Source of the DNA: an uncultured Rhodospirillales bacterium
GTDB lineage: Bacteria; Pseudomonadota; Alphaproteobacteria; ATCC43930; CGMCC-115725
Reading direction: 5' to 3'
Length of the DNA stretch: 64,000 nucleotides
Assembly: GCA_903828515.1 (NCBI GenBank)
Contig: CAIKMD010000007.1
Location: 310,001 to 374,000, forward strand
This document shows positions 33,475-39,458 of the stretch, in pieces. The notes below the pieces were generated by a model. That model searched no databases and was not told the origin of the DNA. It worked only from the letters and a program-made list of their open reading frames with translations. Made by a program: the position numbers and the translations under genes. Numbering within the stretch: position 1 is the stretch's first letter; every line of letters begins with the position of its first letter.

Positions 33475-34656
33475 ATGTTTGTCCTTCTCCTCATCGTTTT
33501 CATCGATCTGGTCGGCTTCGGAATCGTCATTCCGTTGCTGCCGTATTACGCGTTGCATTTTCAGGCCTCGCCGCTCGCGCTGACCTCGTTGATGGCGTGC
33601 TATTCCTTCGCGCAGTTTTTCTCGTCGCCGATCCTCGGGCGGTTGTCGGACAAGCTCGGGCGGCGGCCGGTCCTGCTGGCGAGTCTCTGCTGCTCGGTCC
33701 TCTCTTATATCTGGCTCGGCATGGCCGACACGTTGTGGATGCTGTTCGCAGCAAGGCTTCTGGCCGGCGCCGGCGCCGGCAACATCGCGGCGGCGCAGGC
33801 TTACATCACCGACGTGACCGCGCCCGAAGATCGCGCCAAGGGCATGGGCATGATCGGGGCCGCGTTCGGGTTGGGCTTCACCATCGGTCCGGCGATCGGC
33901 GGCTTGCTCGCGGGTTCCGATCCTGATGCCGCGGCGCTGGCGCGGCCGGCTTTCGCGGCGGCGGCGTTTTCGGCGGCGGCGCTTTTGCTCGCCATCGTCA
34001 TCCTCAAGGAAAGCCTCGCGCCCGCCTTGCGCCACGCGGCTGATCGTCCGGGGCGGATCGCGTTGGCGCAGGACGCTTTCGCGCGGCCCCAATTGCGCGG
34101 GCTGATCGTTCTTTTCTTCCTTACCACCTGCGCCTTCGCCGGGCTCGAGACCACCTTTGCGTTGTGGGCGAATACCGTGTTCGGCTGGGGTCCGTTTCAG
34201 GTCGGCTGGATCTTCTTCTATATCGGGATTCTGCTCGCGGCCTTGCAGGGCGGGCTGATCGGCCGGTTGTCGCGCCGCCATGGTGAGGCGCGACTCGTCG
34301 CCGCCGGGGCGCTGCTGCTGGTGGTCGGATTGCTCGGACTGCCTTTCGCGGGATCGCTCGCGTCGGTGCTCGTCGTCATGGGTGTGCTGGCGGTCGGGCT
34401 CGGGCTGCTCAATCCGTCGGTGACCAGCCTGGTTTCGCGCGCCGCCGCGGCGACCGAGCGCGGCGGCATCCTCGGGGTCAACCAATCGGCCCAAAGCCTG
34501 GCGCGAATTGTGGGTCCTCTGATCGCCGGCCTCGTCTACACTTGGGACGGGCGCGACGCTCCTTATTATGTAGGGGCGGCGATCATGATGGTGGTGGTGG
34601 CAATGGCCCTCCGACTGCCCCGTGAAAAATTGCCGGCCGGGGAGAAGACGACTTGA
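33475..34656 (+). CDS. MFS transporter, TetA-like drug/metabolite efflux family
   Basis: The 393-residue protein has twelve predicted helices. It carries the MFS signature between helices 2 and 3 (GRLSDKLGRRPVLL), helix-4 RLLAGAGAGNIAAAQAYI and motif C GAAFGLGFTIGPAIGG in helix 5, as in TetA-type antiporters. It should export a small molecule using the proton gradient. No TetR-type regulator is adjacent, so its substrate is uncertain. Its stop precedes the Atm1-like gene start by 2 bp, suggesting co-transcription. Confidence 0.88.
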   Translation: MFVLLLIVFIDLVGFGIVIPLLPYYALHFQASPLALTSLMACYSFAQFFSSPILGRLSDKLGRRPVLLASLCCSVLSYIWLGMADTLWMLFAARLLAGAGAGNIAAAQAYITDVTAPEDRAKGMGMIGAAFGLGFTIGPAIGGLLAGSDPDAAALARPAFAAAAFSAAALLLAIVILKESLAPALRHAADRPGRIALAQDAFARPQLRGLIVLFFLTTCAFAGLETTFALWANTVFGWGPFQVGWIFFYIGILLAALQGGLIGRLSRRHGEARLVAAGALLLVVGLLGLPFAGSLASVLVVMGVLAVGLGLLNPSVTSLVSRAAAATERGGILGVNQSAQSLARIVGPLIAGLVYTWDGRDAPYYVGAAIMMVVVAMALRLPREKLPAGEKTT

Positions 34657-34658
34657 GC

Positions 34659-36566
34659 ATGAGTAGGGACCGCGGCGGTCAGCGGAAGCGCATCGACAAA
34701 AAGACCGAAGTCGGATTCAAGCAGGAACTGAGCGCGGTTTTGAACCTGCTGCCCTTCCTGTGGCCGCGCGACAATTGGGAATTGCGCATCCGGGTGATCG
34801 TGGCGGTCGCTCTGCTCATCGGCGCCAAGTCGATCAACGTCTATGTCCCGATGATCTACAAGCACGCGGTCGACATGCTGACGCCGGGCAAGGCGGCGCT
34901 GATCGCCGTGCCGGTCTTCCTCATCATCAGCTATGGCGTGGCGCGGGTCTGCGCGCAGCTTTTCGCCGAATCGCGCGATGCGGTTTTCGCCAAGGTCGGT
35001 CAGCGCGCGGTGCGTCAGGTCGCGCTCACCACCTTCCGTCATCTCCACAATCTCTCGCTGCGCTTCCACCTGGAGCGCCAGACCGGTGGGCTGTCGCGCG
35101 CAGTCGAGCGCGGCATTCGCGGTACCGAATTCCTGCTGGATTATTTCCTGTTCAGTTTCGTGCCGACGATGTTCGAAATCTTGCTGGTGTGCGCGATCCT
35201 GTGGGGTTTGTTCGAATGGACGCTGGCGGCGGTCACGATCGCGACGATCGTCGCTTATGTCGTCTTCACCTTCCTCATCACCGATTGGCGCATGCAGTAC
35301 CGCCGCGAGATGAACGAGCGCGATGCCGAGGCCAATACCAAGGCGATCGACGCGCTGCTCAATTACGAGACGGTGAAATACTTCGCCAACGAAAATCACG
35401 AGGCGCAGCGCTTCGACCGCGCGCTTCAGGCTTATGAGATCGCCGCGGTCAAAAGCCAGCAGACGCTGTCGTTCCTCAACATCGGCCAGGGCGCGATCAT
35501 CGCCTGCGGCCTCGTCGGCGTGATGCTCTTGGCGGGCAACGGCGTTGCCGAGGGCCGCATGACGGTCGGCGATTTCGTCATGGTCAACGCCTATCTGGTT
35601 CAGCTCTATCAGCCGCTCAACCAGCTCGGCATGGTCTACCGCAACATCAAACAGTCGCTCACCGATCTCGAATCGATGTTCCGGCTTCTGGCGGTGACGC
35701 CCGAGGTTCAGGACAAGCCGGGCGCCACGACGCTCAGCGTGACCAGCGGCGAGATCGTGTTCGATCACGTCTCCTTCGCTTACGATCCGCGCCGGCCGAT
35801 TTTGAAGGACGTGTCGTTCCGCGTCCCGCCCGGCGGCACGCTCGCCATCGTCGGGCATTCGGGCGCCGGCAAATCGACCGTGTCGCGCCTGCTGTTCCGG
35901 TTTTACGACGTGAACGAAGGCGCCATCCGTATCGACGGGCAGGATTTGCGCGACGTGACCCAGGACAGCGTGCGCCGCGCCATCGGCGTGGTGCCGCAGG
36001 ACACCGTGCTGTTCAATGATTCGGTCTATTACAACATCGCTTATGGCCGGCCGGGCGCCAGCCGCGACGAGGTCGAAGGGGCGGCGCGTCATGCCAGCAT
36101 CGACAATTTCATCAAATCCTTGCCCGATGGCTATGACAGTCCGGTTGGCGAGCGCGGCCTGAAACTGTCGGGCGGCGAAAAACAGCGCGTCGCCATCGCC
36201 CGCGTGATCCTCAAGGAACCGAAAATCCTGCTGTTCGACGAGGCGACCTCGGCGCTCGACACCAAGACCGAGCGCGAAATCCAGGCGAGCCTCGACGAGG
36301 TTTCGGTCAATCGCACGACGGTGATGATCGCGCACCGGCTCTCGACCGTGATCCATGCCGACGAAATCCTGGTCATGGATGCCGGCCAGATCATCGAGCG
36401 CGGCAATCACGCCGTCCTGATTGCGGCGAACGGCGTCTATGCCGACATGTGGAAACGCCAGCAGGAAGCCGACGCCCGCGCCGCGGCGCTGGCCGCCGCC
36501 GGCGGGATCGCGGGGTCTCCGGTCAAGGTTCCGGTCCCGATCGTCCCCGTCGAGGTTGCCGAATAA
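34659..36566 (+). CDS. Atm1-type ABC exporter (membrane and ATPase domains fused)
   Basis: The protein (635 residues from ATG at 34659) has six membrane helices over about residues 35-320. The nucleotide-binding domain has Walker A GHSGAGKST, signature KLSGGEKQRVAIAR and Walker B ILLFDEATSALD. RMQYRREMNERDAEAN and ALLNYETVKYFANE are typical of the Atm1/HMT1 class. Members export glutathione-linked compounds, important for metal tolerance and iron-sulfur maturation. TTG at 34653 is an alternative start. It is essentially contiguous with the MFS gene. Confidence 0.92.
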   Translation: MSRDRGGQRKRIDKKTEVGFKQELSAVLNLLPFLWPRDNWELRIRVIVAVALLIGAKSINVYVPMIYKHAVDMLTPGKAALIAVPVFLIISYGVARVCAQLFAESRDAVFAKVGQRAVRQVALTTFRHLHNLSLRFHLERQTGGLSRAVERGIRGTEFLLDYFLFSFVPTMFEILLVCAILWGLFEWTLAAVTIATIVAYVVFTFLITDWRMQYRREMNERDAEANTKAIDALLNYETVKYFANENHEAQRFDRALQAYEIAAVKSQQTLSFLNIGQGAIIACGLVGVMLLAGNGVAEGRMTVGDFVMVNAYLVQLYQPLNQLGMVYRNIKQSLTDLESMFRLLAVTPEVQDKPGATTLSVTSGEIVFDHVSFAYDPRRPILKDVSFRVPPGGTLAIVGHSGAGKSTVSRLLFRFYDVNEGAIRIDGQDLRDVTQDSVRRAIGVVPQDTVLFNDSVYYNIAYGRPGASRDEVEGAARHASIDNFIKSLPDGYDSPVGERGLKLSGGEKQRVAIARVILKEPKILLFDEATSALDTKTEREIQASLDEVSVNRTTVMIAHRLSTVIHADEILVMDAGQIIERGNHAVLIAANGVYADMWKRQQEADARAAALAAAGGIAGSPVKVPVPIVPVEVAE

Positions 36567-36666: not shown

Positions 36667-36966
36667 ATGTCGCGACGTTGCAGCATCACGGGTAAAGGCG
36701 TTCAGGTTGGCAACAATGTCAGCCACGCCAACAACAAGACGCGGCGGCGTTTCCTGCCCAATCTTCAGGAAACCTCGTTGTTGTCCGATATTCTGGGGCA
36801 ATCGGTTCGGTTGCGCCTGACCACGGCCGCGATCCGCACCATCGAACATAATGGCGGGCTCGATGCCTTCCTGCTCGACACGTCGAATTCCAAACTGACG
36901 GTCGACGCCGTGCGCCTGAAACGCCGCATCGCATCCGCCAAGGCCAAGCGCGCCGCGCACGCCTAA
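36667..36966 (+). CDS. rpmB: 50S ribosomal protein L28
   Basis: The 99-residue basic protein begins [20 protein letters not shown] and continues [13 protein letters not shown], the standard L28 sequence. The length is typical for Alphaproteobacteria (about 97-102). It stands alone and is followed 28 bp later by a clear terminator. Confidence 0.97.
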
Positions 36967-36994
36967 CCTCGCCGACCAAAGTTTTCGAAAAGCC

Positions 36995-37030
36995 GGGGCT
37001 GTCATCCAACGATGACGGCCCCGTTTCTAT
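36995..37030 (+). terminator. terminator of rpmB
   Basis: GGGGCTGTCATC (36995-37006) and GATGACGGCCCC (37011-37022) form a 12-bp stem with one G-T pair around a CAAC loop. A T-rich tail (GTTTCTATTTT) follows. Confidence 0.8.
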
Positions 37031-37792
37031 TTTGCGTCTTGTCCGTTCTTCCGCATCGGCACCGGTCCCGCCTCACCGAAGGGTGGGCGGTAAGGGGTGA
37101 TGCGACCTCACGCTCATCGAACGTGAGGCGACGCCATCGCATCGGATGATGTTCGATCCGAATTTCTGTCGGTCCTGCCGAATGTGTCGTGTATCGCGCA
37201 CGACAACCGCGTCTCCGGTTCGATCTCGCGCTGAAGATCGTGCGATTCACATCGCGTGCGGCCATGACGTCGCGTCACTGGGGCGTCTTCGTCACGCGAA
37301 CGAATGAAGTGCCGCATCCGGTCCGCGCTTCGACGATGACAAAACTTGCGGTGACGCGTCCGAGAGCGGAAGCGATCCACGATTTTATGGCCGATAACCC
37401 CCTTTTCCCCGCGAGTCGCGATTTGCGGGGGAAATTCGCCCGTCCCGCATGAATCGCGCAACGATGCGTGAGCGACGATCGCGCGCGCTTTTTTCGGCGA
37501 CGTGATGTTCGATGCGCGCGTCGATTTTTCATCGCGCGCGTATCGATCGCGCGATGTCGCGCATCGCATCGGCGTGTCGCGCGACGCGAAAAAAATATCG
37601 CGATGCGGGTGCGATGACGGTGCGACGACGCGCGCGCGATGATGATGTCGTGCGACACGAAGCGTCGCGCATCGGAATGCGAAAAAACCTTGGATTTATG
37701 CGGATTTTTGCGAGGTCGGCGGGGAGTGGAAAGCGCCGGGATGATGATCGATGGCGCGGGGGCAAAATGGAAAACCATGGCCCCAAAATGCT
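37023..37792. other. gene-poor region of unusual composition
   Basis: I find no credible gene in this stretch. Open frames on the minus strand give Arg/Ser-rich, low-complexity products typical of random GC-rich sequence. Visible structure includes an inverted repeat at 37106-37128 (CCTCACG with CGTGAGG) and a hairpin at about 37404-37437 (TTTTCCCCGC with GCGGGGGAAA). From about 37440 to 37690 the sequence is dominated by GCGCGC, CGATG and ATCGCG words with A-runs, unlike the rest of the window. It may hold an RNA gene or be a decayed region. Confidence 0.5.
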
Positions 37793-37834
37793 GGCGGGGC
37801 TGCCCCCGGCTTTTAAGCCGGGAGCAGCCCCGCC
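37793..37834 (-). terminator. strong hairpin downstream of the lysine-rich microprotein gene
   Basis: Two 20-bp arms (37793-37812 and 37815-37834) pair with a single mismatch around a two-base gap (TT). The sequence lies 22 bp after the microprotein stop on the minus strand. A short T-run follows (CATTTTGG). It could terminate or protect that transcript. Confidence 0.6.
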
Positions 37835-37856
37835 ATGGGTAGAAGGTAGAAGAAGA

Positions 37857-37916
37857 CTACTTCTTCTTCTTCTTTGCCTTTTTGGCTTTCTTCTTAGCCT
37901 TTTTCTTCGCTGCCAT
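37857..37916 (-). CDS. 19-residue lysine-rich microprotein
   Basis: The minus strand encodes MAAKKKAKKKAKKAKKKKK followed by TAG. ATG at 37914-37916 is preceded by AAGAGGAA at a spacing of about 8 bp, a good ribosome binding site. Codons alternate AAG and AAA with GCN, as in the lysine-rich tails of histone H1-like and phasin-like proteins, and a strong hairpin follows the stop. A peptide of such charge should bind nucleic acid or polyphosphate. It is shorter than usual annotation limits. It lies divergently from pstS with 474 bp between starts. Nothing else identifies it, and it might also be a relic of a longer gene's tail. Confidence 0.55.
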   Translation of the reverse strand: MAAKKKAKKKAKKAKKKKK

Positions 37917-38264
37917 TTGAATGTTCCTCTTAGCGGCGGGTTGTGCATCGGCCCATCCAATGCATCACCCAGCATTAAAAAGGTAACATTAAACCAACTC
38001 GTTGTGTAGCCAGAATGTCGGACGGCTATATCTGGGGTGTGGATAACTCATTCGGACAGAAAGTTTCACCCACGCAAGAGATGGTGGGCACGGATAAGAA
38101 TTCCGTCTGGTGTTACTCGCTGCTGTATTCGGTTCTTCACGGTGCCGTTGTTTCTTGGTCGGCCGAGGACTCCCGGCCGCCGCCCGGCGGTCGCGGAGAA
38201 GAGCTTTTGTCTTGTGGTGTATCGGCCCCGGTCCCACCTGCCGCTGGCGGGCCCGTTGCCCCCG

Positions 38265-38293
38265 ATGTCACGAAACTGACACTCAAGTGTCAC
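38265..38293 (+). promoter_or_regulatory. Pho box (three half-sites) upstream of pstS
   Basis: ATGTCAC (38265), CTGACAC (38276) and GTGTCAC (38287) are 7-mers spaced exactly 11 bp apart. This is the period of PhoB half-sites (consensus CTGTCAT/C with 4-bp gaps). The array ends 97 bp before the pstS start. It predicts induction of pstS at low phosphate. The surrounding 37917-38390 holds no other gene that I can support. Confidence 0.75.
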
Positions 38294-38390
38294 GCCGGTG
38301 AAACGGGGGCCGCCTACGGTCCCGTTGCCTTCGACAGCGCGCGAGGGGCGCGCCGCTGCGAAACTCTTCGAAATCTCTTAAGGAGCGAAT

Positions 38391-39458
38391 ATGCAAAACA
38401 TGGGACGCACGGTGCTTCGGATGGCGTCGGCAGCGGTGATCGCAATCGCCGTCGCGCAATCCGCAAATGCGGCGGACATGACGGGCGCGGGTTCGACCTT
38501 CGCCTTTCCGATTCTGGCCAAATGGGCCGAGGCCTATAAGGCGTCGACCGGTTCCAATCTCAATTATCAATCGATCGGTTCGGGCGGCGGCATCAATCAG
38601 ATCGAAGCCAAGACCGTCGATTTCGGCGCGACCGACAAGCCGCTGAGCGCGGCCGATCTGGAAAAGAACGGCCTCACCCAATTCCCGTTCATCATGGGCG
38701 GCATCGTGCTGATCATCAATTTGCCCGGCGTCGAGAAGGGTCAATTGACCCTCGACGGGGCGGCCCTCGCGAATATCTATCTCGGCAAGATCACCAAATG
38801 GAATGACGCGGCGATCGCCAAGCTCAATCCGGGCCTGAAGTTGCCGGCGACCGATATCGCGACCGTCACCCGTTCGGACGGATCGGGCACGACCTTCAAT
38901 TTCACCGATTACCTCTCGAAGATGAGCCCGGAATGGAAGGACAAGGTCGGCGAGGACACCGCCGTGCAATGGCCGGTCGCCGGTCTCGGTGGCAAGGGCA
39001 ATGAAGGCGTGGCGGCGCTGGCTTCTCGCACGGTCGGTGCGATCGGCTATGTCGAATATGCCTACGCGCTGCAGAACAACCTGACCTACACCAAGCTGCT
39101 CAACAAGGACGGCAAGGCGGTCGCGCCGAGCCTCGAGACCTTCGCCTCCGCGGCGGCGAATGCCGATTGGAAAAGCGCTCCTGGGTTCAATCTCGTGATC
39201 ACCGATCAGCCGGGCGCCAATTCCTGGCCGATCACCGCCTCGACCTGGGCGCTCATGCAGATGAAGACCGACAAGGCCGAGAACGCGAAGCAGGTTCTCA
39301 ACTTCTTCGCCTGGGCCTACAAGAACGGCAAGCCGATGGCGGACGCGCTCGCTTACGTCGCGATGCCGACGCCGGTCATGCCGGTCATCGAAGACAGCTG
39401 GAAGGCGAACATCAAAGACATGAGCGGCAAGCCGGTCTGGTCGGGCCCCAGCTCCTAA
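38391..39458 (+). CDS. pstS: phosphate ABC transporter substrate-binding protein
   Basis: The 355-residue protein has a signal peptide cleaved near ANAAD. The PstS phosphate-binding blocks follow: [15 protein letters not shown] near the N-terminus, [20 protein letters not shown] and [11 protein letters not shown]. It captures phosphate in the periplasm for PstCAB. No pstCAB genes follow; a terminator closes the unit, so it is a single-gene transcript. A good AAGGAG precedes the ATG at 38391. Upstream Pho boxes imply PhoB control. Confidence 0.95.

Follow-up and report, generated by a model that had tools for sequence, protein, structure and literature searches.

The closest described systems to the gene analysed here are the H1-like tails, exemplified by the C-terminal domains of AlgP and PhaF, by Chlamydia Hc2 (PF07382) and by the hist_H1_lk_Burk family (NF038053), which are rich in Lys and Ala, of low complexity, strongly cationic and expected to be disordered. 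As far as the excerpts of the respective papers go, the KPAA tail of AlgP is required for the spacing of polyphosphate (polyP) granules, KPAA peptides bind DNA and the use of trypsin causes AlgP-like proteins to be undercounted (PMC9239181); in E. coli, polyP binds to disordered stretches that are rich in Lys (PMC12345225), and a polyP-lysine interaction is described for P. aeruginosa (PMC12077175). In the excerpted text of a study of the S. meliloti small proteome, the smallest protein detected had 20 amino acids, and trypsin had failed to cover six of the 30 proteins identified without digestion (PMC10117765).

We analysed a window, that is the whole stretch of 64,000 nucleotides (64 kb) at its full length, in which a sequence-only reading had proposed a real microgene with a ribosome binding site and a hairpin. 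Minus-strand translation from the ATG at 37916 to the TAG ending at 37857 gives MAAKKKAKKKAKKAKKKKK, a 19-residue product that is two thirds Lys and has a computed charge of +12.5 at pH 7. The proposed signals are present (Table 1), with a palindrome beginning 21 nt after the stop. No other ATG frame of 15–40 amino acids on either strand of the 64 kb has at least 30% Lys, and 60 dinucleotide shuffles yielded none that was comparable. A 148-residue minus-strand frame (37529-37975) overlaps the microgene and is broken in a congener. The usual minimum length of gene callers is 90 nt, and it is plausible, as had been claimed, that standard annotation would overlook a frame of 60 bp.

Table 1 Features of the microgene and its surroundings, in window coordinates.
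Feature	Position	Strand	Basis
rpmB (L28), convergent neighbour	36667..36966	+	TIGR00009 and PF00830
Terminator-like hairpin	37792..37835	-	self-complementary match, fold, six-ortholog stem
Microprotein frame and TAG stop	37857..37916	-	sequence; coding-type variation in six orthologs
Ribosome binding site GAGGAA	37924..37929	-	sequence, 7 nt before ATG; purine-rich site kept in orthologs
5'-leader hairpin GCATTGG-ATGGG-CCGATGC	37945..37963	-	alignment of six orthologs
Promoter-like element TGGCTA-N18-TGTTAC	37983..38012	-	ortholog comparison
PHO-box-like half-sites TGTCAC...TGTCAC, beside pstS	38266..38293	+	sequence
pstS, divergent neighbour	38391..39458	+	NCBIfam NF008171, 436.8 bits

Using BLASTN with the 101-bp region, we found matches in four of the 39 genomes of the family, 36 of which have pstS; among the matches listed, five of 30 pstS loci in the family carry the microgene. 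Including the BLASTN match in genome G030, six genomes have it, namely two of genus g1 and four of genus g8, the full number in each case, and strong matches were found neither in the family's nine remaining genera nor in the four genomes of the order's second family. The microgene was thus found in only two of the 11 genera of its own family and is therefore dispensable. Its orthologous products are MAAKKKAKKKAKKAKKKKK, MAAKKKAKKVVKKKKAAKKKKK, MAAKKKAKAKPAKRAAKKKK, MAAKKKAKPAKKTAKRKKK (in two genomes) and MVAKKKAKPVKKTAKRKKK, encoded by 19, 20 or 22 codons, all lengths that keep the frame. Within codons 2–8 of the six orthologs, every third position is variable (7/7), compared with one of the 14 first and second positions (Fisher p 7e-5, for rows that are related). 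This pattern of variation, read from the alignment, demonstrates that the two genera have conserved the frame as coding sequence, and bears out the expectation that relatives would keep it with synonymous changes. Neither of the two signs named by the sequence-only reading as speaking against a gene, frame-breaking changes in the Lys codons and a simple-sequence AAG/AAA expansion lacking a start codon elsewhere, was seen in the six orthologs. From these comparisons it is well supported that the locus is a real, conserved gene and not a simple-sequence accident; the gene very probably codes for protein, judging from its substitutions, and we infer that it is translated.

The microgene is flanked by signals of its own. 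A promoter-like motif (NNGCTR-N18-TGNTAV) keeps its spacing and lies 59–66 nt upstream of the ATG in all five orthologs with enough upstream DNA and matches once in the 64 kb, having been derived from the same ortholog rows on which it was scored. Downstream, the 44-base palindrome is 91% self-complementary, and the RNA of the 75 nt that follow the stop folds into 24 pairs at -51.9 kcal/mol, beginning 17 nt after the stop. The 201 nt from 37760 to 37960 have a folding z of -6.65, and none of 200 dinucleotide shuffles was equally stable. A consensus terminator scan did not list this minus-strand hairpin, which is followed by a T-run of no more than ATTTT. Of the terminator-like sites which that scan placed outside the microgene, most fall between rpmB and the hairpin (37000-37790), a stretch of about 0.8 kb without a likely gene and with many CGCG and GATCG palindromes.

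Conservation of structure raises the question of whether the transcript acts mainly as a structured small regulatory RNA, with a frame that is secondary or with a dual function. In the six orthologs, 92.9% of the cells of the leader hairpin are paired and one of its seven pairs shows two-sided change, as do four of the 14 pairs of the terminator-like stem. Taken together, two-sided change affects five of 21 pairs; the 500 shuffles averaged 2.1 and none reached five, the structure having been drawn from the rows on which it was tested, which favours it. However, variation is concentrated at third codon positions, the ten Rfam matches found in 36900-38500 up to E 1 all lie far below the gathering score, and the look-alike genes described below preserve the frame and not the sequence of leader or stem. 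We therefore regard a mainly regulatory RNA as unlikely.

A second alternative is that the peptide is specific for polyP or phosphate, is Pho-controlled and works with pstS, the divergent arrangement with which had been pointed out from the sequence and is confirmed here. The microgene is divergent from pstS in five of the six genomes, the contig of G030 ending just upstream, so that the two adjoin in all five testable orthologs, even though pstS of g1 and pstS of g8 belong to different clades (33-row tree; at least two label changes forced). As the same microgene adjoins the pstS of both clades, the pair may have moved together, or pstS may have been replaced. Lys-rich stretches bind polyP, according to the excerpted text of PMC12345225, which would also suit such a peptide. 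Nevertheless, TGTCAY half-sites, searched for on both strands of the 400 nt upstream of the five pstS-linked orthologs, gave no conserved site near the microgene: the window has two, at -355 and -377, beside pstS, G029 has one at -145 and the other three have none. The window's own half-sites beside pstS are ones which we take to be PHO-box-like from the PHO consensus. Look-alike genes elsewhere have other neighbours, and the suggested phosphate control of the microgene is not borne out. Because no conserved Pho site lies nearby and look-alike frames stand beside unrelated genes, the pstS setting looks incidental as far as these loci indicate, and we consider a Pho-controlled partner of pstS improbable.

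The gene on the far side of the microgene is rpmB in the window and in G001, and another gene, patatin-like by eye, in G029 and G030. Among plasmid records the window's L28 is nearest to that of Azospirillum (76%), followed by Sphingomonas and Sinorhizobium; the ABC transporter at 34653-36566 is likewise nearest to Azospirillum (66%), so that the class is probably Alphaproteobacteria. A 16S rRNA gene was looked for in the window's own genome, and none was found. Frames of 12–80 amino acids with 25% Lys were absent within 5 kb of rpmB in both Azospirillum regions examined. A search for remnants beside pstS in other genera, using a covariance model with filters off on 25 pstS loci, gave six weak matches (best E 0.1). 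Frames of 12–45 amino acids with 45% Lys were not found near pstS, in flanks of up to 3 kb, among the 80 matches listed, which are not close relatives (best pstS identity 61% among the matches listed).

In order to place the microgene within its class, we searched 385 genomes with the covariance model, which contains the Lys codons and the hairpin and is thus biased towards such loci, and obtained 62 matches in 53 genomes at E 0.01. Sixty of these, leaving out the own-strand complement and one further match in G046, were put to a frame test (an ATG frame no longer than 50 residues and with a Lys content of 38% or more). Thirty-one passed, in 31 genomes of 18 families with the window's own included, three of them doubtful for lack of a convincing ribosome site (L156, L157, L200). 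The 29 failures comprise two short Lys-rich frames beyond the limits of the test (L204, 36 amino acids; L213, 44), two borderline cases (L184 and L187, 45 and 49 amino acids) and otherwise longer Lys-rich proteins or frames that are not Lys-rich. The exact pattern MAAKKKAK, which is free of the hairpin bias, matched 13 times in 12 of the 385 genomes (reversed-pattern control, 0), and all but one of these matches, of 137 residues, are frames of 16–29 amino acids. Behind the short ones, the DNA folds at z -2.3 or lower in nine of the 11 cases with sufficient downstream sequence (50 mononucleotide shuffles) and does not in two. Within the order, five of 43 genomes gave six matches, of which five are microgenes and the sixth a longer protein. 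MAAKKKAAKK occurred in seven of 265 genomes, at places already in the covariance-model list, five of them short and two (family f98) longer. A profile search with the peptide alignment found nothing in the 385 genomes and likewise missed the window's own gene, so that its negative result carries no information.

Across the phylum, MAAKKKAK was found in two of 398 genomes, the window's own included, the other match heading a 120-residue protein. At least 120 stretches of viral contigs match it; of the 80 viral stretches among the matches listed, 79 are complete frames, 72 of which exceed 50 residues and seven do not. The viral and phylum matches are mostly long, and therefore shortness follows the class and not the start motif. 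At these viral loci (L222-L301) the eight-residue start mostly heads longer proteins, several with a YPSAYANAWL motif.

In a set of 39 loci, most of them chosen by the hairpin model and counted without a shuffled control, a simple match to a ribosome site occurs at 33, and a hairpin that reaches -15 kcal/mol or lower at 38. Upstream motifs were counted against shuffle means: sigma-70-like promoters at six loci (mean 2.8), CtrA-like motifs at two (0.26) and TGTCAY at four (3.0); stress- and heat-shock-type promoter motifs were found at none of the 39. Neighbours vary by family and include, by eye, ftsY, malate dehydrogenase, a B12-type ribonucleotide reductase and truA. Equal-length pairs in seven ortholog groups, one of them identical, differ by 52 substitutions, 26 of which fall in the third codon position (binomial p 0.009 with one third expected, for pairs that are not independent), and their changed codons are 20 synonymous and 18 non-synonymous. 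Judging from these substitutions, protein-level selection across the other groups is loose. Make-up is better kept than exact sequence, which would fit a disordered peptide acting by charge but is also weak evidence for per-residue selection.

The 36 distinct peptides contain 56% Lys, 29% Ala, 3% Pro and 0.6% Ser, and none has an acidic, aromatic, Gly, Cys, His or Asn residue; the longest fully tryptic piece is six residues. They share the composition, charge and expected disorder of H1-like tails, and unlike these they are 16–44 residues long and carry no other domain. The window's 19-mer is too short for a family scan, and eight look-alike or orthologous microproteins of the 36 reached no Pfam or NCBIfam cut-off; each library gave one sub-threshold H1-like match, both from the 44-residue L213 (HC2, 10.2 bits, cut-off 40; NF038053, 11.9, cut-off 80). 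With the polyP-binding Lys-rich and PASK stretches, as excerpted from PMC12345225 and PMC12077175, they have in common dense lysines that could bind polyP, but they are stand-alone genes and, because they have no acidic residues (neither Asp nor Glu) and almost no Ser, they are not PASK. The literature searched, in which subscription journals and preprints are thinly covered, yielded no description of stand-alone Lys/Ala microproteins and no occurrence of five of the peptide strings.

Short basic ribosomal proteins are also known, namely bTHX and bL37. That the microgene encodes a small ribosomal or rRNA-binding protein of this kind would agree with its size and charge and with its proximity to rpmB in the window, but the eight look-alikes match no family, the distribution is patchy and rpmB is not a neighbour in G029 and G030, so that we find this explanation still harder to accept. 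A chance frame within a simple AAG/AAA run, to which low-complexity sequence and the lack of an annotated family might point, is contradicted by the shuffles, which were empty, and by start and stop codons, leader and stem that are conserved in both genera, and is very improbable. The leader peptide of a lysine-sensing attenuator, suggested by a short Lys-rich frame followed by a hairpin, is scarcely credible, as the gene after the hairpin is convergent and not co-directional at the four loci examined (window, G001, G029 and G030).

We give about even weight to the reading of the product as a tail-only analogue of the H1-like tails of AlgP, Hc2 and PhaF, neutralising and condensing DNA, RNA or polyP. 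A free-standing mRNA of perhaps 200 nt, composed of the promoter-like element, the hairpin leader, the 60-nt frame and the terminator-like hairpin, would yield a 19-residue cationic peptide equivalent to an H1-like tail without a folded domain. Being disordered and acting by charge, the peptide would bind and neutralise polyanions, DNA or RNA first and polyP second, and would help to compact or tether them; such binding is deduced solely from charge and precedent. Counting against this reading are the dispensability of the microgene, the loose selection in the other ortholog groups and the single sub-threshold H1-like score per library. The look-alikes of different families would presumably do the same job, low-complexity sequence being unable to show homology between families.

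Recurrence of look-alikes in relatives suggests, at the level of their sequences, an overlooked class of very small cationic proteins. More tentatively, many Alphaproteobacteria may carry unnamed stand-alone genes for near-pure Lys/Ala proteins of 16–44 residues, each gene equipped with a ribosome site and a terminator of its own. The products would be tail-only linker-histone analogues and the smallest proteins condensing chromatin or polyP, largely evading gene callers and trypsin proteomics and arising or moving independently of folded domains. Provided that they are translated, they would rank among the smallest proteins to bind DNA, RNA or polyP autonomously, and would belong to a class which both annotation pipelines and tryptic mass spectrometry are designed to overlook. 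An H1-like tail would then be useful as a gene product in its own right, with implications for how bacterial linker-histone-like proteins originate.

Further Lys-rich frames were seen at other places. The window's own genome has a longer one of about 88 amino acids (L003, contig C6, ~798060-798330), with a Pro-rich start, an H1-like tail and a ribosome-site-like stretch before its ATG, and a longer frame follows a similar stretch in genus g6 (L128). Genus g8 has a second Lys/Ala microgene (L008, 1499-1558; L135; L139), flanked in L008 by TonB-receptor-like and OmpA/MotB-like frames, by eye. In family f98 (L189, L193, L205) a Lys-rich frame runs on in frame from an apparent malate dehydrogenase C-terminus, and the f114 microgene lies directly behind mdh. 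Inverted repeats resembling regulator binding sites lie upstream of the microgenes of f6 (TTGCATT...AATGCAA; L150, L164, L168) and f94 (CGAGAAACATTTCTCG; L166, L167).
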